DNA of 34,877 bases, taken from a virus. How positions within the stretch are numbered: position 1 is the first letter of the stretch; every line of letters starts with the position of its first letter. The position numbers and the translations under genes are program-made. The notes under the pieces were generated by a model. It was given only the letters and a program-made list of their open reading frames with translations, was not told the origin of the DNA and made no database searches. Positions 1-34,877 of this stretch are shown here, piece by piece. The DNA lies in the IMG/VR virus record IMGVR_UViG_3300044634_001023, positions 1-34,877 of that record. The stretch is one strand, 5' to 3'.

Positions 1-471
1 TTTTTTATCTATCTGCTCCAACTTCCTTTGTGCCCATTCAATCCCAACACGCCCACCCCAAGCGTCTACCATCAACCCTCCGCATCCTTCCTCATAAGGT
101 ACATCCTCATTCTGTAAGTGCCTTGCAAAACTTGCCATTCGTGCTATTGTTTCACGGCTTATCGGTTCACGTTTTGCTAGTTGGTTTGCCCTTGCCCATC
201 CTACTGGTGTTCCGCATCCTTTTGGGTTGCCGCTTTCATCTCTATACTTCAATGCACGTTTAGCGTTCTCGGTTGCGGCTTTCGGGTAGTCGGTGTATGT
301 TTCAGCGTTTAAGATTTCTTTCTGCGCTTTCAAGTCATTAGCATGGCTGTAAAGGCAAAGTCGGTATCTTTGCGCTTCGTCTTTGTATTCGCTGACCATA
401 ACATCATCACTCATGCAACGCTGCATGAAATCGTCCTTAGTTTCGTTGCTGTTTGGTTTAGGGATTGGCAT
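1..471 (-). CDS. Conserved phage protein, left-end copy (lacks only its stop codon)
   Basis: The reading frame runs from an ATG at 471 to the window edge. It gives 157 residues, the full length of the paralogous copy at 32372..32845, so only the stop codon is missing. An N-terminal module has the pattern DDFMQRCMSDDVM followed by a Y-x-D/E-x-x-QR stretch. A C-terminal module has A-x-x-ALKY, GTPVGWARA, ISRETIARM, GCGGLM-x-DAWGG and WAQRKL. Similar modules occur in phage proteins near terminase and head genes; I know no established function. By eye the copy is about 85% identical in DNA to the right-end copy, with changes concentrated in the last third (for example LAKREP against LANREP). A TATTTTTG box lies 4 nt before the ATG. 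Confidence 0.8.
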   Translation of the reverse strand, partial: MPIPKPNSNETKDDFMQRCMSDDVMVSEYKDEAQRYRLCLYSHANDLKAQKEILNAETYTDYPKAATENAKRALKYRDESGNPKGCGTPVGWARANQLAKREPISRETIARMASFARHLQNEDVPYEEGCGGLMVDAWGGRVGIEWAQRKLEQIDKK

Positions 472-501: not shown

Positions 502-646
502 GTTAGCTTAATCATTCATTAACCGCAAAAATGCGGCATAATGCACATTATATCATTCTTCTTCGGGTTCGGATATTTCTTCTTGTTCTAATTCACTAAT
601 GAAATCCATTTCATAAACTTGGATAAGTTTAACCCCATCTTCGATT
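502..646. repeat. Terminal overlap with 34733-34877
   Basis: These 145 bases match the last 145 bases of the window with two differences: A531 against G34762, and A552 against T34783. Both differences fall outside the coding part of the 97-aa gene; one is in a hairpin loop. The match marks the point where the ends would join in a circular or permuted genome, giving a unit of about 34,231 bp. Confidence 0.9.
523..551 (-). terminator. Paired hairpins after the 97-aa gene (terminator-like)
   Basis: Just after the stop of the 97-aa gene lie two inverted repeats: ATAATG/CATTAT around CA (538-551) and CCGCA/TGCGG around AAAA (523-536). The right-end copy keeps both stems; its one change here is in the second loop. 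There is no U-run on the minus strand, so a factor-independent terminator is not certain. The hairpins could equally be an mRNA end-protecting structure or a protein site. Confidence 0.35.
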
Positions 647-792
647 TCGTCAAAGGTCAATAGTTGTGGAAGTTTCAAATCACGTATTTTACGAAGCGCA
701 TCTTTGTACGTTGGTGCATACACCACAATGTTAGTGCCTTCAAAGTTTTTATAATCTAATACTTGAAAAGTCCATTGGTATAGCTGGTCCAT
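553..792 (-). CDS. Small acidic protein, unknown function
   Basis: I place the start at the ATG at 792, one base after the stop of the metallophosphoesterase gene. A longer frame to 846 would lie inside that gene and adds an unlikely N-terminus. The 79-residue product begins MDQLYQWTF, has a mixed alpha/beta-looking core (VVYAPTYKDALRKIRDL) and ends in a strongly acidic tail (ELEQEEISEPEEE). I recognise no family. It is the last gene of the replication operon that starts near 5624. Its last 31 codons are repeated at the right edge of the window. Confidence 0.75.
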   Translation of the reverse strand: MDQLYQWTFQVLDYKNFEGTNIVVYAPTYKDALRKIRDLKLPQLLTFDEIEDGVKLIQVYEMDFISELEQEEISEPEEE

Positions 793-793
793 C

Positions 794-1792
794 TTACAAA
801 ACTTTACCGTCAATAATAGATTTGTTGTACACCTCAAACTCGCCACCCTTTAATACCTTAATCACCGCAAATCCTAAATTCCATTCATTCAAAGTCAAGT
901 AGTCTGGGTTCAATTCGCAAAGGCATCCAATCACAAAAGTGCCGTGTACTTTTCCGCTGATGTTTGTCTTTAGCATCGTTTGCGTTTTATGTTTATCACC
1001 GCAGATGGTGCTTTCTCCCGAACGTAGCCACAAAGTCCGAGCCGCATTAATCCCTCCGCTACCTTTGTACTCATTGCCATGTATGGCGTAAAGTTTGCCA
1101 ATCTTCATTACTTGGTTGTTCGCTATCCAAGTGATCCCACGCTCACCAAGTCGCAGAATAGTTTGAAGTCTAAACTCCTGCATATCCAAAATAACTGGTG
1201 CTTTCACCCTTAGGTATCGCTCCCATCGCATTTCGTGATTGCCTTCCTTAAAAAATATTTTAGCTAGTGGGAATGCTTTTTGTAGCACGTCTAAAAAGTT
1301 ACGGCATATCTCAAACTCATAAGCCAAGTCACGCTTCTTTGGGTCTTGTTCGTGGAAACTAGCTTTGTGCATATCCATTATGTCCCCGAGTAAAAGAATG
1401 GTGTTTATGTTTTCTTTTTTGCCGTAGTCAAGTGCGAGAGTTAGTGCTTTGTTATTTTGGTATGGCAAATGAACATCGGATAGGACTAAAATATTGTTGT
1501 TAGCCGTTGGCATCTTATAAATGACGCTTGGCTTCTCTTCGCTTTCGGGTAGTCCGTATGGGTTTTGTGCGCTAAAATCACTTTCCATTGCCAAGTTGGG
1601 TGAAGTAGCCTTTCGGGTTTTCTTACCCATTGCACCAGTGTAGTGCCTAATAACGGTTCTTGCGTGTTCGGCATCATTAAACACTAAAGGATTTTCATTA
1701 AACATTTTCTCGGCTAAAGTATTCTTACTACTATTTGGAAACTTCTCAATATACTTCATTGCGATTAATCCTAGTTGTGTTGGCTTTGCCAT
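794..1792 (-). CDS. Calcineurin-like metallophosphoesterase
   Basis: A 332-residue protein with the ordered metal-binding motifs of the calcineurin-like phosphoesterase fold: D106-x-H108 (LSDVHLP), GD136-137 with D140 (GDIMD), GNHE at 184-187, H239 in a HGN context and a final GDKH at 265-268 where many relatives have GHTH. These residues normally bind two metal ions that cleave phosphomono- or phosphodiesters. Residues 1-95 look like a separate helical N-terminus. The gene follows a VRR-NUC nuclease in the replication operon, so a role in nucleic-acid processing is likely; the substrate cannot be read from sequence. Confidence 0.9.
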   Translation of the reverse strand: MAKPTQLGLIAMKYIEKFPNSSKNTLAEKMFNENPLVFNDAEHARTVIRHYTGAMGKKTRKATSPNLAMESDFSAQNPYGLPESEEKPSVIYKMPTANNNILVLSDVHLPYQNNKALTLALDYGKKENINTILLLGDIMDMHKASFHEQDPKKRDLAYEFEICRNFLDVLQKAFPLAKIFFKEGNHEMRWERYLRVKAPVILDMQEFRLQTILRLGERGITWIANNQVMKIGKLYAIHGNEYKGSGGINAARTLWLRSGESTICGDKHKTQTMLKTNISGKVHGTFVIGCLCELNPDYLTLNEWNLGFAVIKVLKGGEFEVYNKSIIDGKVL

Positions 1793-3272: not shown

Positions 3273-5624
3273 TTAAAAAGGTGCTTCGGTTAATTTTAAA
3301 TCAATAGAAAACCAACGCTCATGATGTGACTTTCCTTCGTTGTAATCATGGTCAACAAACCTTGCATAACTTTCAAGCCACTTTTTGAACTTCTTATTTG
3401 TTAGCCACTTTTTATAGTCTTGATACTCGTTGGTGAAGTTTTCAAAAATTGTAGTTTTATTTATACGCTCATTGTGTATTATCGCTCCGTCCTTTGTCCA
3501 TTCATAAAACTCAAATGAAGTTTCTTTGATGAACTTGCGCACCACTAGGTTATTGAACTCATTTTGAACTAAGCCGTTTGTCAAATAATACTGCAAACAA
3601 TTAACCATGTAGCTGTCAAACCTTGCCCATTCGCTTTCGCTCCAGTCATCAAAAAGTAAATGACCGAAGTGGTCTAATGGTGTACGGTTTGCGCTAAAGT
3701 AGCTACTCATTTCAATCTCAAACTTTCTACGCTCAAATGAACCCCCAACGCCACCAACGGTGTAATTGGTAGTAATTAATATTTTCGGACTTTTTTGGAT
3801 GGGTAGTTTAATCGCATCCTGTCCTTTGTACTCCAAAGTGATACCCTCAGTAATTAAGCTAAAAAGACTTTCAAAACTGAAGTTCTTTTTTACATCGTCA
3901 AACACCAGTAGTTGGCAATCGGTTGAAACGGTTTGATAAGGGAAGGACTTATTAAACTCAAATGTTTTTCCGTCAATCATGCTGACCTTTTTCATTTTGG
4001 CTATGGCGTTCCAAAATAACCCTTTACCACTTCCCCCATTCGGGTTCTCGCTTATTGTTTCATCATTAAAAATAATCGCTTTATTATTTGCTGATGTCTT
4101 AAAGGTATGCAGTAAATAACCAATTACTGACTTAAATGTGTTGTACTTTTGAATGTCTTTACCGCTAACTAACCAGATGAACTCACGGAATATAGCTGGA
4201 TGGTGGTCTGTTTCATTATACTCACGGTTTATTATTTGGTTCTTCCATACATAGTCATTTAACCTTACATAGTCTATTTGTTCAACTACGTCCTTAGTTA
4301 CTCTCAAAGCGCAGTTTGAATAGTAAATAAAACATTCAGTTGGTGTATCTTCTTTTAGCTGAATGTCGGCTGACTTTAAAAAAGATAGATAGTTTGGTGT
4401 AAAAAATTGTGGATTTCCTGCAATGTAGTCATAAGGCTTCGCCCCTATTTTATCATTGCTTAATAAATAATCAAGTACAAAATCTTTGATTTTCTTTTCG
4501 TTGGTTTCCTCAATGAAGTTTTGTTCTTTACGAATAAAAGTGTAAGTGTTACCGTTAGCTGGATAATACTTCATGAAGTTGTTTTGCTCTAGCCACCTTT
4601 TGAATTTTAAAGGACTTAATATTATTCGCCCTTTGTCGGTTATGTTCCAAAACTCATCTACTTCCATCGACCCCTTTACTCGTTCAATAGTTTCTAAGTC
4701 TTGGATTTCGATGTTATCACGTTGGAGCGATGCTTTGATTTGCTTTGGGTTCTTGCCACTTAGTATTTGCTTTTCAATCGAAGAACGGATTTGACTATCC
4801 TCAAAGAACCTGCTGTTAAACGTATTCTTACCACGTTTATAGGCTGAATTACATATCTGCTCAATCTCACTACTATCAAAGTCGCTTTCTTCGTATTTTA
4901 ATAGCTGTGATAGTGCTGTATGCTTTCCGATGCCAAAGTCATTAAAAGCCATTGCCAGTTTAAATAGGTTCTCATTTCTACTTCCGTTTTGTAGGCTGTA
5001 CTTTTTATTGAACCATTTTAAAAGGTTATCTAATATTTGACTTTCTGAACTCATAGGTACAACAACATCAACGTGCTGTTTGCCTATTTCAGTATATTCC
5101 TCCAATTCAATCGCATCCCATTGTATAGCTTCTGTGTTGATGTAAATTTCTGGGTCATAACTTTCAAAGCAGAAACGGCATATATCTTTGCCCGACTTAT
5201 CGAAGTTAGCGCAATTAAAATGACTTTCTAAAGCGTTAAAATATAAAGTAAAGTTTTCCGCATCCTTTGGTATTTTAACTAATGCTTTTACACCAAGTGC
5301 TGAAGGAGAAATAAAAGCAGAATAAACAAATGGCTCTTTACTTAGAACCTGTTTATAGTTTATGGCTTCGGCTTCGGTTTTGAATTTATCAAAGTCAAGT
5401 ATTAAGAAACCAGATGGTTCGATTAAGCCACTGACTGACCTTGTTGTGAATGTGCCGTTATAGCAAACACCTGCTAAGGACTTCTTATCCTTTTCGTCTT
5501 TTGTTTTGCGATACTTTAGGACTTTGTCTTTGCTTTCGCCTTGCTTTATTCTGTTTAGGCAAAAGTCAACTGACCTTTGGAAAGGGTTGGCAACGTCTGT
5601 TACCGATTTAAATATTGAAACCAT
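3273..5624 (-). CDS. Primase-helicase: BT4734/VirE_N-like N-terminus and D5-type helicase
   Basis: I choose the ATG at 5624 (MVSIFKSVTD), which matches the usual start of the BT4734/VirE_N family; a longer frame to 5669 adds an atypical leader. The N-terminal half carries the family's YRKTKDEKDKKSLAG and LILDFDKF motifs, expected for a primase-polymerase-like fold. The C-terminal half is an SF3/D5 helicase with the loop GGSGKG near residue 530, Walker B LLVFDD near 573 and a sensor ITTNY near 615. It is about 783 residues long. It would lay primers and unwind DNA at the phage origin, and leads the replication operon. Confidence 0.88.
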   Translation of the reverse strand: MVSIFKSVTDVANPFQRSVDFCLNRIKQGESKDKVLKYRKTKDEKDKKSLAGVCYNGTFTTRSVSGLIEPSGFLILDFDKFKTEAEAINYKQVLSKEPFVYSAFISPSALGVKALVKIPKDAENFTLYFNALESHFNCANFDKSGKDICRFCFESYDPEIYINTEAIQWDAIELEEYTEIGKQHVDVVVPMSSESQILDNLLKWFNKKYSLQNGSRNENLFKLAMAFNDFGIGKHTALSQLLKYEESDFDSSEIEQICNSAYKRGKNTFNSRFFEDSQIRSSIEKQILSGKNPKQIKASLQRDNIEIQDLETIERVKGSMEVDEFWNITDKGRIILSPLKFKRWLEQNNFMKYYPANGNTYTFIRKEQNFIEETNEKKIKDFVLDYLLSNDKIGAKPYDYIAGNPQFFTPNYLSFLKSADIQLKEDTPTECFIYYSNCALRVTKDVVEQIDYVRLNDYVWKNQIINREYNETDHHPAIFREFIWLVSGKDIQKYNTFKSVIGYLLHTFKTSANNKAIIFNDETISENPNGGSGKGLFWNAIAKMKKVSMIDGKTFEFNKSFPYQTVSTDCQLLVFDDVKKNFSFESLFSLITEGITLEYKGQDAIKLPIQKSPKILITTNYTVGGVGGSFERRKFEIEMSSYFSANRTPLDHFGHLLFDDWSESEWARFDSYMVNCLQYYLTNGLVQNEFNNLVVRKFIKETSFEFYEWTKDGAIIHNERINKTTIFENFTNEYQDYKKWLTNKKFKKWLESYARFVDHDYNEGKSHHERWFSIDLKLTEAPF

Positions 5625-5718
5625 AGTAGAAAAAAAGTGCCCCAAAGAATACAAGTGATGGAAGCACAAGCAATCGATGGGGCAATAAGTTTATAATTGT
5701 ATCTTCCATATACGCTTA

Positions 5719-14901: not shown

Positions 14902-16024
14902 TTGGCATATTTATTTGAGTGTTAACAATACCATACTCGCTCAAAGTCCAATCTATACTACTGCCGTACATTGTAGCCATTGTTTCTTGAATTAACCCCT
15001 GCACTGGTTTTACGGCTTCTCTTAATTCTTTTCGTGCTTGTTCTATTGCGTTTGTGTTTCCTAAAACTGCCGCTTCGCTGTAACCTAGTAATACAGGATG
15101 AACGCCAAATAAACGGCAAATAGAACGCTCGATAATGTCACGCTTAGTGTTTGATGCTTCTAGTATTGGTTTCGGGTCTGTTGCTGTGTATGTTGGTGCT
15201 TGTTCGGGTGTTTCTACAAAGTGTGCCAAAACTCCAAAACGTGAAGTCAAGCCATCTTTATTTTTCTGCAACCCTGTGAACTGCGTCATTGCTTCTTCCA
15301 CACGCTGACGGTCTGTTAATCCATCTTCGCCTTCCGTTGTTTCATTTACTCCGCTAAACGTCATGATACCACCTAAAACAAAACCATTCAACACCGCTTC
15401 GTAATCCATCTTTGATAACTCGCTTGATGTTTTCAAGTCCTCAAAAGCCGCTAAATAATCTGGAAGTCCATAATGCCCACTATCAAAAGGATTGCCATTG
15501 TAAACGTATAGTATCTCGCCACGCCCACCAAAGTGATTGACATTTATATCCATCGCTTCAAATGTAGCTACTTCGCCCTGAAAGTCTTGCAACTCAACCC
15601 ACGCATCACGTCTATATTTGTCTGTTTGTATTGTCGGGTTATAAAACCAAGTCCCATTTATTCCACGTCTGAATTTCTGCAACGGCATCACTTCCGATTT
15701 TCCAACTCGACCGTTTCCAAGTCTTGAAACATGGATAACAACCGCATTAAAATACGACCACGAAGTTGCAAATATTCCTACAAACTTATCCGCTGTTTGC
15801 TTTGAGTTTACTTTGAACCCCGAAGCAACTGGAGAAACAAATCCATCCGCTTGAATGTACTCAGCATATTTCTTTGCGGCTTTCTTCGCTACGCCACTAT
15901 TGTTGATTGCCTCAATTAATTCTAAAGGCAAATTGTCATTCCATCCATAACGAAAATATCCATCACCTTTTTTTTCAGTAGTGACTGGCAATATGTTTTT
16001 GAATGTTCGTGTATGTTTGCTCAT
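14888..16024 (-). CDS. Portal protein
   Basis: A 378-residue protein with portal hallmarks. These include an N-terminal GYFRYGWNDNLPLELI region, the segment HYGLPDYLAAFEDLKTSSEL near 183-202, and the late motif RSICRLFGVHPVLLGYSEAA near 303-322 followed by NTNAIEQARKEL. These fit HK97/PBSX-type portals, which form the dodecameric DNA gate at the capsid vertex. At 378 residues it is slightly short. The start overlaps the GT25 stop by 4 bp (ATGA). Confidence 0.85.
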   Translation of the reverse strand: MSKHTRTFKNILPVTTEKKGDGYFRYGWNDNLPLELIEAINNSGVAKKAAKKYAEYIQADGFVSPVASGFKVNSKQTADKFVGIFATSWSYFNAVVIHVSRLGNGRVGKSEVMPLQKFRRGINGTWFYNPTIQTDKYRRDAWVELQDFQGEVATFEAMDINVNHFGGRGEILYVYNGNPFDSGHYGLPDYLAAFEDLKTSSELSKMDYEAVLNGFVLGGIMTFSGVNETTEGEDGLTDRQRVEEAMTQFTGLQKNKDGLTSRFGVLAHFVETPEQAPTYTATDPKPILEASNTKRDIIERSICRLFGVHPVLLGYSEAAVLGNTNAIEQARKELREAVKPVQGLIQETMATMYGSSIDWTLSEYGIVNTQINMPNVSE

Positions 16025-16662
16025 TGTATGCCTTTATAATTTACCTCGATTTCTTTGATAGTGCTAAACCCTTTTGGATGTATCACTAACCGTTCGTTTG
16101 GCTTAATGCAAAGGTGCGATTTTTGGTAGTCAATATAGTGACCGTCCACTATTTTTTTAGGACACGAAAGCATTTCAATTAGATTATTGTACGCTCTCTT
16201 GTGTACGATGTACGCAAACGCTCCCCACGTTTGATTTTGCTGTGTAAAGTATTGATTAAAGTAGAAAGGATTACGCCCAAACGAACCGCCCAAATAAAGG
16301 ATGTGCCAATCTTTGGGTAACTGGTTCAAATACTTTTCAAACTTACCTTTAAAATCTTTTACGAAAGTTATATCATCTTCAAAAATAGCAATGCACTCAT
16401 AACCTCTTTCTTTAGCTAGTTTAATAGCGTTCAAGTGGCTTTGAATGCACGCATATTCGTTATTCGTTACACCTTGAATTGGTGAAACTATTTCTTTGCC
16501 ATCAATGGCAATTAATCTTTCGACTTGAAGGGTCTTCCCCTTTTCTTTGGCTGTGGAATAGAAACATCCTCTAGCCTCTTGTTTGGCACTAGTGGTAAAT
16601 CGCTCTCGTCTGTCGGCACTTCGTTCAAGGTTGATAAAGACGCTGGGAACTGGGATGTTGAT
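16021..16662 (-). CDS. GT25-family glycosyltransferase, start codon not conventional
   Basis: The frame is open from 16686 to 16021 and encodes about 213 residues of a GT25-type enzyme: VFINLER with DRRERF at 16641-16597, AIDGKE near 16510, then a SHLNAIKLA helix and FEDDITF with the metal-binding EDD near 16375, and GGSFGRNPF. No ATG, GTG or TTG exists before the conserved N-terminus; the first is a TTG at 16434, which would delete 75 residues. Entry must be by a rare start (ATC 16662 fits the family length) or by -1 frameshift from the 111-aa gene at the A9 run. GT25 enzymes transfer sugars, often to lipooligosaccharide. Confidence 0.75.
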   Translation of the reverse strand: MNIPVPSVFINLERSADRRERFTTSAKQEARGCFYSTAKEKGKTLQVERLIAIDGKEIVSPIQGVTNNEYACIQSHLNAIKLAKERGYECIAIFEDDITFVKDFKGKFEKYLNQLPKDWHILYLGGSFGRNPFYFNQYFTQQNQTWGAFAYIVHKRAYNNLIEMLSCPKKIVDGHYIDYQKSHLCIKPNERLVIHPKGFSTIKEIEVNYKGIQ

Positions 16663-16847
16663 AGGCTTTTTTTTTGACCTTTTTCTTCACCCATAATGTC
16701 AAAGCAATGTGACTTTCCAAACTTGCAGCATAAGTTGTAAAGTTCTTCACTGATTTGCGTTTCTTTAGTGATAGAAACAATTTGCGTTCCTGCTCGGAAT
16801 ACGATAGAACCAACGTCTTTTTTTAGTTTAAATTTTTGAGGTATCAT
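16512..16847 (-). CDS. Small protein with AT-hook-like tail, overlaps GT25
   Basis: A 111-residue protein starting MIPQKFKLKKDVGS, with a folded-looking first 55 residues and a disordered tail ending PKKRGRPFKSKD, an AT-hook-like KRGRP motif common at the ends of small phage proteins. It contains an A9 run (16675-16667) that in its frame makes A AAA AAA, a classical -1 slip site. About 150 bases of its 3' end also encode the conserved GT25 N-terminus in the -1 frame. A good promoter lies 20 nt upstream. Confidence 0.7.
   Translation of the reverse strand: MIPQKFKLKKDVGSIVFRAGTQIVSITKETQISEELYNLCCKFGKSHCFDIMGEEKGQKKSLSTSQFPASLSTLNEVPTDESDLPLVPNKRLEDVSIPQPKKRGRPFKSKD
16667..16675 (-). promoter_or_regulatory. 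Candidate -1 frameshift (slippery) site
   Basis: On the minus strand the run reads CAA AAA AAA AGC in the 111-aa frame. Slipping back one base continues as AAG CCT ATC and enters the GT25 frame, giving QKKKPINIPVPSVFINLER. Either ribosomal slippage or RNA polymerase slippage at nine A residues could do this. Confidence 0.5.
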
Positions 16848-16863
16848 ATTTTGATTTTATTGT

Positions 16864-17472
16864 TTACAAATCTACTTTAATTAATTCCACACCGCAAATC
16901 TCGCCACGTTCAACTATCTTGTAACGTAGGCTGTTTAAGCCGTCAAACTCCCATGTGTTCTGTGTTCTATTCAATCGCTCTTTATTCGCCTTATATTCGC
17001 TTGTAATCGGTTGCTTTTCGTGTTTCAAAGACTTATATCTGTGTAACTCGAATTTAGTACGGATGTTGTTTAGTTTTGTTCGGGTGAATAGGTCATCATC
17101 TTCGCCACCCCATCCCCAATAATTATTTGAGAAGCCATTGCAAGTTAGAAATGCCTCTTCTGTAAACGCTGTCACGCCACCAAAACAAGTATCATAAGGC
17201 ACTTTGTAATTGAACTGCTCACATAAACCGCTAAAGTGGACCGCCCCATCAATAGGCTGGTTGTAATGATCTAGGCTTTCAGCTAACAAATCAACATCAT
17301 GAAAGCAAACGGTTTTATCATTGCACTCATTAAAGCCTATATTGAGCAATTTACCACGATTAAATAACTCGTTATTCGCTTGTTCCACTACTAAAATGTC
17401 AAACCCTTTGTAATGCTGTACAAATTGTTTAAGGTGGTCAAGTCTATTTCGATATGGAACTATTAGCTTCAT
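16864..17472 (-). CDS. GT7-like (beta-1,4-galactosyltransferase-type) glycosyltransferase
   Basis: A 202-residue enzyme with the GT7 pattern: VPYRNR at 5-10, FNRGKLLNIGF at 37-47, the DVD metal site at 59-61 in FHDVDLL, CFGGVTAFTEEAFLTCNGF at 96-114, and WGWGGEDDDL at 119-128. In the family these residues bind a metal and UDP-sugar and set acceptor geometry. It is a compact soluble catalytic domain without signal or membrane segment. Translationally coupled to the upstream glycosyltransferase (4-bp overlap). Sugar and acceptor cannot be assigned. Confidence 0.85.
   Translation of the reverse strand: MKLIVPYRNRLDHLKQFVQHYKGFDILVVEQANNELFNRGKLLNIGFNECNDKTVCFHDVDLLAESLDHYNQPIDGAVHFSGLCEQFNYKVPYDTCFGGVTAFTEEAFLTCNGFSNNYWGWGGEDDDLFTRTKLNNIRTKFELHRYKSLKHEKQPITSEYKANKERLNRTQNTWEFDGLNSLRYKIVERGEICGVELIKVDL
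16867..16898 (-). promoter_or_regulatory. Internal promoter for the 111-aa/GT25/portal genes
   Basis: Within the end of the GT7-like gene, TTTG (16898-16895) is followed after 20 bp by TAGATTTG (16874-16867), a full match to the Bacteroidota promoter. Transcription would start near 16860, about 13-19 nt before the ATG at 16847. Confidence 0.6.
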
Positions 17473-18110
17473 TGGTTACGGTTGATTATCGCCCACTCTA
17501 GGCATTTGTCAATTCGCTCGGTCTGCTTCACGTCTTTGCCATACTCACGACTATACCATGAATGGATGCCAATCGGTTTATCATTAATATTTATCACCGT
17601 ACTTGTGCCATCTGTTGAAGTTATCTTGGTGAAGTTAGCGTGTTTGAAGTTCAAATGTAGCCAATAAAATAACCCTGCAAACGGTTCATCTACATTGCCA
17701 TTCTTTTCGCACTGGTTTGCGTAGTCATAAACTTTTGAGTTGTCAAATTTTGGCAACTTAGTTTTAATCATGTCCACGTTAAACACATTAAAGAACGGAT
17801 TGACGTGGAAAAATGATTTGTCTCTATGGCTAATCACTCCCTTATCGGGAACACCACAATACGCAAAGTCATTTCGTATCATGTCAGCAATTACTTGGTC
17901 TATTAAGTCCTCATTGGTAACAAAGAAATCTTCGTCAGCGTTTACGATTATGCCGTTGTAATTCTCGAGAATGTGAAGGAGATAAGTCAGCGCACCATGA
18001 AAGCCTGTAAATTGTTGCAACCTTACGAAAGTATTGTCATCACGCCATAATGATTTTGCAAGGCTGTAAAGTTTATCGTTTGCGCTTCGGGTTATAATTG
18101 TTTTCTTCAT
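17469..18110 (-). CDS. Probable GT-A fold glycosyltransferase
   Basis: A 213-residue protein with a GT-A-like layout: ITRSAND near 6-12, a Rossmann-type first half and the acidic metal-site candidate NADED at 57-61 in NGIIVNADEDFF, then a C-terminal part with DEPFAGLFYW and IGIHSWYSREYG. I do not place it in a numbered family with confidence. It is coupled by 4-bp overlaps to the GT7-like gene and the 72-aa gene. It probably works with the two following enzymes on the same glycan. Confidence 0.65.
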   Translation of the reverse strand: MKKTIITRSANDKLYSLAKSLWRDDNTFVRLQQFTGFHGALTYLLHILENYNGIIVNADEDFFVTNEDLIDQVIADMIRNDFAYCGVPDKGVISHRDKSFFHVNPFFNVFNVDMIKTKLPKFDNSKVYDYANQCEKNGNVDEPFAGLFYWLHLNFKHANFTKITSTDGTSTVININDKPIGIHSWYSREYGKDVKQTERIDKCLEWAIINRNQ

Positions 18111-30147: not shown

Positions 30148-30178
30148 AGGTTTATTTTTTATTTGGTTAAATGATATG

Positions 30179-30211
30179 CAAATATAGCTAAACATTTTTT
30201 ACACTTCCAAA
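30179..30211 (-). promoter_or_regulatory. Promoter of the late accessory unit
   Basis: TTTG (30211-30208) and TATATTTG (30186-30179) are 21 bp apart. The flanking sequence (GATATGCAAAT and TTCCAAACTTTTT) is shared with the promoter region at 9660-9720. Confidence 0.6.
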
Positions 30212-30235
30212 CTTTTTCTAAACTTTTTTTAAAGT

Positions 30236-30526
30236 TTATTTTTTAAACATTTTCTGCTGTTGCTGTTGTGCCGCTTGTAAATCTTTTTGATACATCGACT
30301 TTTCAAAGTCGTGAAGGAGAATGTCGTAAATTAAAGTCGCCTGCATATTTGTGACCTCTTCAATAGTTTTGCCCCATCTGTCCATCATGGCAAAGATAGT
30401 TGCCTTTGCTCCGAACTTCTTGAACCTATCAACATTCGCTATTGCCTCCGCTTGACTTGGTTTGTAGTCGTTCAATCTTTTATAACGCTCAAAGAACTTT
30501 TTGAGTGCAGAAAAAAAAAAGCGCAA
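30236..30526 (-). CDS. Tail assembly chaperone, frameshift extension (T part)
   Basis: This frame has no plausible start of its own (the first codon is a TTG inside the upstream gene) and is reached from the 148-aa gene by a -1 shift on ten T residues (30520-30511). The extension of about 93 residues has DYKPSQAEAIANVDRFKKFG, DRWGKTIEEVTNM and a glutamine-rich end (AAQQQQQK). This is the arrangement of the lambda G/GT chaperone pair, which guides tape-measure and tube assembly. Confidence 0.7.
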   Translation of the reverse strand: MRFFFSALKKFFERYKRLNDYKPSQAEAIANVDRFKKFGAKATIFAMMDRWGKTIEEVTNMQATLIYDILLHDFEKSMYQKDLQAAQQQQQKMFKK

Positions 30527-32371: not shown

Positions 32372-32845
32372 CTAAGTCTTATCTATCTGTTCTAATTTTC
32401 TTTGTGCCCATGCAACTCCCTCATCACCGCCCCATGCGTCCCACATTAAACCACCGCATCCATCTTTGTAAGGTACTTTGCTGTTTTGTCTATGCCGTTC
32501 AAATGATGCCATTCGTGCTATTGTTTCACGGCTAATTGGTTCACGGTTTGCTAGTTGGTTTGCCCTTGCCCATCCTACTGGTGTACCGCATCCTTTTGGG
32601 TTTCCACTTTCATCTCTATATTTTAAAGCACGTTTAGCGTTCTCGGTTGCGGCTTTCGGGTAGTCGGTGTACGTTTCAGCGTTTAAGATTTCTTTCTGCG
32701 CTTTCAAATCATTTGCATGGCTGTATAAACAAAGTCGGTATCTTTGCGCTTCGTCTTTGTATTCGCTGACCATAACATCATCACTCATGCAACGCTGCAT
32801 AAAATCGTCCTTGCTTTCGTTGGTTTTTGGTTTAGGTATTGGCAT
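32372..32845 (-). CDS. Conserved phage protein, right-end copy
   Basis: The complete 157-residue version of the gene cut off at the left end, ending EQIDKT. It carries the same two modules: DDFMQRCMSDDVM with Y-x-D-E-x-QR early, and GTPVGWARAN, ETIARMASF, DGCGGLMWDAWGG and WAQRKL late. Function unknown, though similar proteins lie near packaging and head genes. It starts 3 nt after the 156-aa gene stop and has a TATTTTTG box 4 nt before the ATG. Confidence 0.75.
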   Translation of the reverse strand: MPIPKPKTNESKDDFMQRCMSDDVMVSEYKDEAQRYRLCLYSHANDLKAQKEILNAETYTDYPKAATENAKRALKYRDESGNPKGCGTPVGWARANQLANREPISRETIARMASFERHRQNSKVPYKDGCGGLMWDAWGGDEGVAWAQRKLEQIDKT

Positions 32846-32848
32846 GGG

Positions 32849-33319
32849 TCAAAAATAGTAATTAATTATTGCACTATTATCTTTTAAGAAATCAAAGGTA
32901 TAACATTTAAACTTAGTCCCATCAAAATTAGTTTTTTCTACTCCATTTTCCTTTAACTTATTCCTAATTTTATCAATATCAAACAAAATATACTTTATTA
33001 TTTTTTCTTCGTTTTCAGATAAAACACCATAAAAATAAATTTGTCCTTTGCCGTCAATTAGTTTATCAATTTCTGTTAATCCACCATTTTTTGCCCTGCT
33101 TCTAATTGTGATGTCATTGTAGTTTCTGTATTTAAAAGACCTTATCCTAACAGATATTTGTATGTCTGCGCTAAAATATAAATCAAAAGATAGTTTAGTG
33201 TCTTCAACTTCTGAACTTTCATTAACAACAAAACAATTTTTAGGTAAATTACTAATGTTTTGGTAAACGATAGACTTGATGTCATTAATAAATTTGCGCT
33301 CTAATTCCCTAATTTCCAT
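32849..33319 (-). CDS. Unknown protein, possible nuclease partner of the methyltransferase
   Basis: A 156-residue protein with a helical N-terminus, a strand-rich core (KLSFDLYFSADIQISVRIR, then NDITIRSRA, TEIDKLIDGKGQIYFYG) and a helical end. The D...VRIR arrangement and TEIDK could be a variant PD-(D/E)xK-type site, and the gene overlaps the methyltransferase by 11 bp, so a restriction-type role is possible. I do not recognise the family with confidence. It belongs to the cassette missing from the left end. Confidence 0.55.
   Translation of the reverse strand: MEIRELERKFINDIKSIVYQNISNLPKNCFVVNESSEVEDTKLSFDLYFSADIQISVRIRSFKYRNYNDITIRSRAKNGGLTEIDKLIDGKGQIYFYGVLSENEEKIIKYILFDIDKIRNKLKENGVEKTNFDGTKFKCYTFDFLKDNSAIINYYF
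32850..32857 (-). promoter_or_regulatory. TAnnTTTG box of the right-end 157-aa gene
   Basis: TATTTTTG, then ACCC, then ATG at 32845, the same as in the left-end copy. It overlaps the stop of the 156-aa gene. Confidence 0.4.
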
Positions 33320-34580
33320 TGATGTAATTATTTGCTATGTTAAACATTTCTTTGTCTAATTCAATACCCAGACATTTCGCTTTTAATTCATTGCAAACTT
33401 TTACGGTGCTTCCTGAACCCATAAATGGGTCAACAATAAAATCACCATCAGTAAATGAAACCTCTAGTATTTGTTTTATTAGTTCGTTTGGCTTTTGGGT
33501 AGGGTGTACCATTTTTGAAGTGTGCAATCTTGGAACACTAATTAAATTGCCTCTTCTATTGTTTACAAGCTTTTTACCTTTAACACAATAGATAACTATT
33601 TCAGTCTGATTGCCCCAGTCATTATCTAAATCACCACTCCCTTTGTTGCCTTTGTCCCAAACAATGGGCGTTTTGATAGTAAAATATTTACTTATAATTG
33701 TTTCAAAATTACTAAATACTGCCCAACTGCAAAAGAAATATAGGTGTGAGTTTTCGGCTGTTTTTCTTTGCAATACCTCACAAGTTTTATCCAATAAGTC
33801 AAAGGCTTCATCCTTTCCATCGTTTAGTAATCCTCTTTTTGTTATTGTATTATCATAAATTGAACGATTAGAAACATAATCAATTCCATAAGGTGGGTCT
33901 GTTAAAATTATATCAATGCACCCATCTTCTAGGGTTTCTAAAACTTCTAGGCTATTACCTAAAATAATGTTGTCGCTCACCTTTGTTTCAACTCTTGCTT
34001 CTAAAACCTTTGCGGTGTGTTCGGCTTTCTTTTCCTCCTTCTTTATTTCTTGATAGGCTTGGTTAATGCTTATTTCGCCAGTGCTTAATTGTGCTTTTAC
34101 TTCGGGCGTTGCTACGGCTTCAATCTTCTTTACCTTTGCAATAGTATCGTGTGAAACATTGGCAACCTTTGCAACTTCTTTTCGTGTTTCAATAGGTTCT
34201 ATCTTAACCTCCGCAGATTTCTGCTTACCTTTACCATCTGAAAGTTTTAAATTTTCCTTTGCCCTTTCACTAAATACACTTTCTAATTGCAAGGCTAAAA
34301 CACTTCGTTGATAGTTGCTTAAATTTCTGCGCCCAAACTGGTTGTTTATCATCCATTCTTTTACATCATTTTCGCTTTCAAAATGTTTACTTTCGGTTTC
34401 AAACTTCAACTGGTGCTTTGTAGCTATTTCAAAGCGATTATGCCCATCAATTATAAAACCATTCCAAGTAATTATTTTTTCCCTTATACCTTCGTCTAAA
34501 CAATTTTGTTCTAATTGATTAAATTCTTCTGCTGTTAAAGCTGGTATTAACTTTTTAAATTCTTCTTTGATTTTTAACAT
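33309..34580 (-). CDS. ParB-like domain fused to DNA methyltransferase (beta class)
   Basis: A 423-residue two-domain protein. Residues 1-110 are ParB-like, with DGHNR at 45-49 and NNQFGRRNLSNYQRS near 79-93. A HTH (TRKEVAKVANVSHDTIAKV) lies near 132-150. The C-terminal methyltransferase has DPPY at 228-231 (motif IV) before DPFMGSGST at 384-392 (motif I), and HPTQKP at 359-364, the beta-class order for N6-adenine or N4-cytosine enzymes. It would protect phage DNA from restriction or act with the 156-aa protein. Long structured leader upstream. Confidence 0.88.
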   Translation of the reverse strand: MLKIKEEFKKLIPALTAEEFNQLEQNCLDEGIREKIITWNGFIIDGHNRFEIATKHQLKFETESKHFESENDVKEWMINNQFGRRNLSNYQRSVLALQLESVFSERAKENLKLSDGKGKQKSAEVKIEPIETRKEVAKVANVSHDTIAKVKKIEAVATPEVKAQLSTGEISINQAYQEIKKEEKKAEHTAKVLEARVETKVSDNIILGNSLEVLETLEDGCIDIILTDPPYGIDYVSNRSIYDNTITKRGLLNDGKDEAFDLLDKTCEVLQRKTAENSHLYFFCSWAVFSNFETIISKYFTIKTPIVWDKGNKGSGDLDNDWGNQTEIVIYCVKGKKLVNNRRGNLISVPRLHTSKMVHPTQKPNELIKQILEVSFTDGDFIVDPFMGSGSTVKVCNELKAKCLGIELDKEMFNIANNYINGN

Positions 34581-34590
34581 AGTATTTTTT

Positions 34591-34649
34591 TAAAATAAAA
34601 CGCCCTTATCAAATCCACCGCATCTCACTTCGGTTTCATTAACAAGGGC
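34591..34649 (-). terminator. Terminator-like hairpin in the methyltransferase leader (possible attenuator)
   Basis: On the minus strand GCCCTTGTTAA (34649-34639) can pair with TTGATAAGGGC (34612-34602), 11 bp with two wobbles, followed by GTTTTATTTTA, just before the ATG at 34580. The loop holds GTGAGATG (34628-34621), complementary to CATCTCAC (34679-34672) upstream, so two interlocked or alternative folds are possible. It may instead simply end upstream transcripts. Confidence 0.45.
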
Positions 34650-34689
34650 AATATTTTTCTCGGCTTATAATGTGAGATGAACCGTTATG

Positions 34690-34697
34690 CAAATATA
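34690..34697 (-). promoter_or_regulatory. Possible promoter of the methyltransferase cassette
   Basis: TATATTTG matches TAnnTTTG and would leave a leader of about 105 nt before the ATG at 34580. No convincing -33 is present. Confidence 0.35.
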
Positions 34698-34732
34698 ATA
34701 AAATAGTTCAATTATTTTCTTTTAATCATTCC

Positions 34733-34877
34733 GTTAGCTTAATCATTCATTAACCGCAAAAGTGCGGCATAATGCACATTATTTCATTCTTCTTCGGGTT
34801 CGGATATTTCTTCTTGTTCTAATTCACTAATGAAATCCATTTCATAAACTTGGATAAGTTTAACCCCATCTTCGATT
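34733..34877. repeat. Terminal overlap with 502-646
   Basis: The last 145 bases repeat 502-646 with two differences. This includes the end of the 97-aa/79-aa gene and both hairpins after it. The junction with the methyltransferase cassette falls just upstream of GTTAGCTTAATC. Confidence 0.9.
34784..34877 (-). CDS. Small acidic protein, right-edge partial copy
   Basis: The last 30 codons and stop of the gene seen whole at 553-792 lie here, identical in DNA over 94 bases. The gene is cut by the window edge. If the genome is circular this is the same gene, read twice. Confidence 0.85.
   Translation of the reverse strand, partial: IEDGVKLIQVYEMDFISELEQEEISEPEEE

Follow-up and report, generated by a model that had tools for sequence, protein, structure and literature searches.

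Why do the same two neighbouring genes lie 8 nt apart at one end of a viral contig (494-501) but 1,865 nt apart at its other end (32868-34732)? The contig, hereafter the window, is the whole of an IMG/VR virus record of 34,877 bases, and its ends overlap each other: each carries a gene for a 157-aa protein and a gene for an acidic protein. A sequence-only reading had noted a methyltransferase (MTase) cassette between these genes at one end only, and both the spacing, which we recomputed, and the two junctions, as judged by alignment of the left end with the right, agreed with that description. The three parts named as cassette contents, a ParB-MTase gene, a 156-aa gene and a structured leader, were all located. 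The cassette lies in an exchange locus beside the terminase; the fixed point of this locus is the conserved 157-aa gene, with site A upstream and site B downstream of it. The features of the locus are as follows.

1..471, minus strand: 157-aa gene, left (empty-A) allele; the contig stops after GATAAAAAA
494..501, no strand: empty site A
553..846, minus strand: acidic-protein gene, left copy; conserved anchor upstream of site A
32372..32845, minus strand: 157-aa gene, right allele (cassette strain); single-copy anchor between sites A and B, with a weak match to phrog_2859, of unknown function
32846..32867, minus strand: conserved right flank of site A (AATTAATTACTATTTTTGACCC), containing the stop of the 156-aa gene
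32868..34732, minus strand: site-A cassette, made up of promoter, leader, ParB-MTase gene and 156-aa gene
32849..33319, minus strand: 156-aa gene, partner of the MTase gene, which it overlaps by 11 nt
33309..34580, minus strand: ParB domain plus N6/N4 DNA methyltransferase, 423 aa; PF01555 at E 3e-27, ParB PHROGs in the N-terminal half
34733..34877, minus strand: conserved left flank of site A with the end of the acidic-protein gene, right copy

Pairwise alignment of 5-493 at the left with 32376-32867 at the right gave 433 identical positions of 491 (88%), and the 157-aa proteins of the two ends share 90% identity; the sequence-only reading had put the gene at about 85%. On the acidic-gene side, 498-646 and 34729-34877 agree at 146 of 149 positions, and 553-646 is an exact copy of the final 94 nt. 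The left end breaks off exactly at GATAAAAAA, the last bases common to the relatives, which continue past this point as TAA, TAG or GAC variants leading to different site-B contents. A stop at the point of divergence, together with an exact 94-nt repeat, is what one would expect of an assembly graph at a strain branch.

With the 157-aa, MTase and acidic proteins as queries, we retrieved about 30 unique related IMG/VR contigs, which form one lineage. The ParB-MTase with its 156-aa gene occupies site A in the window, L003, L084 and L085, and the empty allele, with an 81-nt gap, is found in L004, L006, L009, L010, L011, L171, L182 and others. L003 is 99.8-99.9% identical to both window ends (99.8% from 498 on) and shows in one piece the acidic-protein gene, the leader, the MTase gene, the 156-aa gene, the 157-aa gene, terS and terL, passing from sequence of the window-left type into the cassette of the window-right type without a second 157-aa gene. 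L084, nearly identical to the window, agrees with L003 for its extent. These comparisons support the reading of the window ends as alleles of two strains, brought together where the assembly broke. The window would derive from a tailed phage of Bacteroidota, the assembly of which was interrupted at a locus that varies between strains, leaving alleles of co-occurring strains at its ends; the view that both alleles were in one sample is based on the contig itself and its relatives.

The enzyme in the cassette is a predicted N6/N4 DNA methyltransferase, its PF01555 match scoring 96.3 bits against a curated cut-off of 26.7 and its motifs, DPPYGID and then DPFMGSGST, placing DPPY ahead of FxGxG in the beta-class order. 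Other contigs of the lineage carry other enzymes. Site A is empty or holds one of three MTase types, the second being a helicase-MTase (L005, L008, L178, L186 and L187; as two genes in L185 and L189) and the third an MTase of 207-227 aa (L172 and L190; cut in L181). Site B contains nothing but terS, or a constant ParB domain with a variable modification enzyme: ParB-MTases with differing central regions (L004, L007, L009, L010, L011 and L179), a C5 MTase (L006), Mom (L173 and L190), a TET-associated glycosyltransferase (L188), or an operon with an FkbM methyltransferase and a Tet/JBP oxygenase (L171, L174, L175 and L176). Site B of L012 (379-3061) has ParB, a TAGT-like glycosyltransferase, Sulfotransfer_2 and an oxygenase-like gene in one operon, the product of which is possibly a sulphated hypermodified base, and that of L182 and L183 has a GIY-YIG endonuclease and no modification enzyme. 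The families exchanged are N6/N4 MTases, C5 MTase, Mom (PF25680), TAGT (PF20691), Tet_JBP (PF12851) and FkbM. Among the contigs in which both sites are readable, nine have only A filled and 15 only B (Fisher p 3e-5, an optimistic value as the contigs are related); occupancy is near-exclusive but not strict, because L190 fills both sites and L184 neither.

Some further observations were made on these genes. The site-B ParB-MTases of L004, L007, L009 and L010 are nearly identical at the N- and C-termini but not in their central part, a pattern that a swap of the recognition domain would produce. A promoter block with a short 5' leader at 30162-30242 (minus strand) of the window is about 83% identical to copies before the helicase-MTase in L005 (3575-3646) and L008 (3560-3639), possibly a recombination patch. 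At 16021-18110 of the window, consecutive glycosyltransferase-like genes lie amid structural genes.

The flanks of site A are conserved, with ...TTAATGAATGATTAAGC on one side and AATTAATTACTATTTTTGACCC ahead of the start of the 157-aa gene; the latter is common to the empty allele, the ParB-MTase allele and L172. The end of the 156-aa gene (its last residues and stop, ...NYYF*) falls within the flank that the empty allele also has, and in the relatives L124 and L115 this gene ends differently. The empty allele carries its own short stretch (about AGAAATAAA) in place of the cassette, so the swap is not a clean insertion.

Two explanations for the window ends had been offered from the sequence alone, namely two phage variants meeting at the assembly join and a diverged tandem duplication. 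The former is supported in that the cassette and empty alleles lie on separate contigs and L003 joins both ends. The latter, a single genome in which the 157-aa and acidic genes are duplicated and diverged with the cassette in one copy, would explain why both copies are on one contig, but the 157-aa gene is single-copy in every contig showing it (about 30 lineage contigs, none with two), and the near-identical L003 and L084 run from the acidic-protein gene directly into the cassette. One 157-aa copy per contig together with alternative contents at A and B thus argues for strain alleles, and the duplication was rejected as barely credible. The cassette could also be imagined as a transposon-like or homing element that inserts itself: it is AT-richer (about 32% versus 38% GC), brings a promoter and leader of its own, and varies in presence at a single site. 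However, neither terminal inverted repeats, a target duplication, an integrase or homing nuclease nor a recombinase was found at the cassette, unrelated MTase modules sit in the same flanks, and the empty allele has its own filler. With neither repeats nor target duplication, a self-mobile element was rejected as very improbable. Of the earlier proposal of a mobile unit gained or lost precisely, the exchange between alleles stands and the precise gain or loss gives way to replacement: since the flanks are conserved, terminal repeats are absent and the 156-aa stop lies inside the shared flank, we infer that the alleles arose by allelic replacement through recombination in conserved flanks.

The 156-aa protein may be an endonuclease or an inhibitor, or else a partner that confers specificity. 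Were it an endonuclease, the cassette might be a compact restriction-modification system that attacks competitors rather than hiding the phage. The 156-aa gene lies directly downstream of the MTase gene in nearly all the closest MTase relatives, its family has the invariant residues D40, D46, S56, R58, R60, D69, E83 and K86, and the predicted order of secondary-structure elements resembles a PD-(D/E)XK core, with a faint similarity to PvuII, all of which would suit such a system. Yet no PDB fold matched below E 0.1 in spite of a confident AlphaFold model (pLDDT 89.5), Pfam and PADLOC gave no endonuclease match, there is no clear D/ExK triad, and downstream of many more distant MTases no 156-aa gene can be recognised; we consider a restriction-modification system unlikely. 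The best viral match is an uncharacterized Salinibacter phage protein. In the allelic replacement that we favour, modules would be exchanged by recombination within the conserved flanks, presumably altering resistance to host restriction. The anti-restriction benefit suggested by the sequence-only reading fits this locus well, because nearly everything exchanged there modifies DNA, and is presumed from the known function of the enzyme families.

The MTase gene of the cassette is preceded by a leader (34592-34684) that has the form of a two-hairpin intramolecular kissing loop between the promoter and the start codon, and a second leader of this kind was found elsewhere in the window. Their elements are listed below.

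34690..34697, minus strand: -7 promoter element of the Bacteroidota type, TATATTTG
34661..34684, minus strand: hairpin P1; its loop 34672-34679 (CAUCUCAC) is S1, which pairs with S1'
34602..34649, minus strand: hairpin P2/P3, terminator-like, with the internal loop AUGAA/GGAUU
34592..34601, minus strand: U-run (GTTTTATTTT) after P2
5719..5726, minus strand: promoter element of the primase leader, TATTTTTG
5629..5713, minus strand: second kissing-loop leader, upstream of the primase gene (ATG at 5624)

A short linker separates P1 from P2/P3, whose apical loop 34621-34628 (GUGAGAUG) is S1'. As in an intrinsic terminator, a G+C-containing hairpin and a U-run are present between promoter and start codon. 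In the primase leader, the P1 loop 5703-5709, ATGGAAG, pairs with CTTCCAT, the apical loop of the hairpin at 5639-5683, and a U-run comes next; sister phages show a compensatory change from ATGGAAG/CTTCCAT to ATGCAAG/CTTGCAT, and a third allele has a different loop.

The base pairing of the leader is an evolved structure, as shown by covariation beyond that of shuffled and slid controls. When 10 leaders were aligned, 96.9% of cells were paired and 16 of 26 pairs had changed on both sides, with a covariation of 0.59 against 0.22 for shuffled and at most 0.08 for slid alignments. For an out-of-sample test, viral contigs were fetched by the P1 hairpin alone, which gave 12 leaders, one of them (L206) in the same contig as the known L151. 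All 12 had the full 8-nt S1' downstream, compared with 0.33% for shuffled S1, and all 12 had 6-9 consecutive T residues behind P2. A second set of 15 leaders, eleven of which were fetched by the P1 pattern alone (again including L206, which shares the contig of L151), showed S1-S1' paired at 100%, five of the eight pairs double-changed and a covariation of 0.51 versus 0.15. Our first pseudoknot scan used loose thresholds and also matched coding sequence on the other strand, and its low scorers were discarded. A promoter-anchored descriptor applied to all loci gave 76 matches on the bait strand and eight on the other, whereas shuffling the promoter-proximal sequence left 3-5 matches. After de-duplication and a stricter filter, 52 unique leaders remained; they fall into 32 clusters and use 34 S1 sequences.

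Relatives of the MTase gene that have their own promoter share this leader architecture with a different sequence, and those closely behind another gene have no leader. Genes downstream of leaders include ParB-MTases, DUF6291 and other replication-initiator-like genes, and HNH/NUMOD4 endonucleases, and the leader precedes early replication genes in the cultured Flavobacterium phages elemoE 6-9C, elemoC 14-1A and filifjonk9-1, in the last of these at 13.87 kb, and in the cultured Olleya phage Harreka_1. The HNH/NUMOD4 homing-endonuclease-like genes with a kissing-loop leader lie around 3520 of L195 and around 4919 of L177. A second sub-family upstream of the MTase, in which P1 is longer and is separated from P2 by an additional hairpin, was seen in L135, L143, L144, L147-L150, L152 and L153. 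L163, a contig of a Vicingaceae genome, has two kissing-loop leaders (4888 and 6740), a ParB-MTase, a 156-aa homologue and a DUF6291-like gene; it lies in a bacterial genome assembly and is probably a prophage or phage contig. The strict P1 pattern occurred in none of 296 Bacteroidota host genomes, and the leader model R1 in none of 46 and none of 395; the R1 negatives are weak because R1 also missed the Vicingaceae genome holding the weak copies of L163. Rfam 15 gave no match at the gathering score and only chance-level matches below threshold. A known riboswitch or other Rfam RNA was rejected, as no Rfam family fits the leader.

What would such a leader do? In the cassette allele, the MTase gene has its own promoter and a leader RNA at its 5' end, in which the P1 loop kisses the apical loop of the second hairpin, whose U-run comes shortly ahead of the start codon; the kissing complex would set the terminator fold and with it the amount of mRNA for the MTase or, elsewhere, for replication. 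Since a terminator-like hairpin sits between promoter and start codon, the leader may well be a cis-acting transcription attenuator. No alternative antiterminator conformation was identified in it, and kissing and the terminator are not mutually exclusive; attenuation is for these reasons one of several possible functions. It is conceivable, with a somewhat smaller likelihood than one would give an even bet, that the leader instead acts on translation or on the stability of the RNA, or that it is a binding site for a protein or metabolite, in the manner of a riboswitch or an autoregulatory element. Unpaired TATA in the P1 loop, and AAUGAA and GGAUUU in the internal loop, are conserved in the main sub-family, and the hairpin ends only about 10-45 nt ahead of the start codon, which would suit this function, but these unpaired bases are not conserved in other sub-families, and the U-run after P2 in 12 of 12 out-of-sample leaders is not needed for translational control. 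Action in trans, by which terminated RNAs of ~100 nt would kiss other leaders or RNAs of other phages, appears improbable. The P1 and P3 loops are complementary between separate RNA copies too, making intermolecular pairing possible in principle; at the four two-leader loci from the scan and in the window, however, the S1 sequences share no 6-nt core, and such unrelated loop pairs favour an interaction in cis.

Taken jointly, we consider it quite probable that the window ends are strain alleles, that the locus is an exchange site for DNA modification, and that the leader of its MTase gene forms a kissing loop, for which attenuation is the proposed function. We also lean, by a little, towards the broader idea that a class of cis-regulatory RNA not described before is common to Bacteroidota phages, namely intramolecular kissing-loop attenuators with private loop pairs before early replication, homing-endonuclease and exchangeable modification genes; as the class precedes exchangeable modification genes, it would follow from this idea that modules arrive with built-in expression timing. 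Our literature search, covering mainly open papers, found no published description of the leader or the swap site, so that an earlier one is possible. The natural populations of one phage lineage seem to swap whole modification chemistries at one place, namely N6/N4 and C5 methylation, Mom, glycosylation and Tet/JBP oxidation, and thereby offer a natural series for testing each DNA modification against host restriction. Because the leader occurs in the cultured phages filifjonk9-1, elemoC, elemoE and Harreka_1, the timing of early and modification genes in Bacteroidota phages becomes testable at the bench.

The enzymes are of known families, and the place at which they are swapped is an accessory hotspot of the phage genome that specialises in DNA modification. 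The enzymes at A and B belong with the orphan MTases and hypermodification operons of phages (PF01555, PF25680, PF20691 and Tet_JBP PF12851), mostly above curated cut-offs; here, however, unrelated enzymes interchange at two sites flanking the 157-aa gene, and the ParB domain is constant at site B. Phage accessory-gene hotspots likewise have conserved flanks, variable content and mosaic exchange, whereas the content here is almost entirely DNA modification and the occupancy of the two sites is near-exclusive. The leader shares its 5' position and an intrinsic-terminator-like hairpin with terminator-linked cis-regulatory leaders, such as riboswitches and protein-binding attenuators, but differs from them in its private kissing pair (34 sequences) between the loop of a 5' hairpin and the apical loop of the terminator-like hairpin. 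Long-range pairing within a short leader is known from the H-type pseudoknot riboswitches SAM-II and SAM-V and from the pseudoknotted autoregulatory leader of T4 gene 32. The SAM-V model scored 15.8 bits on one leader against a gate of 41 bits, and, unlike in these pseudoknots, S1 here lies in a closed hairpin loop.
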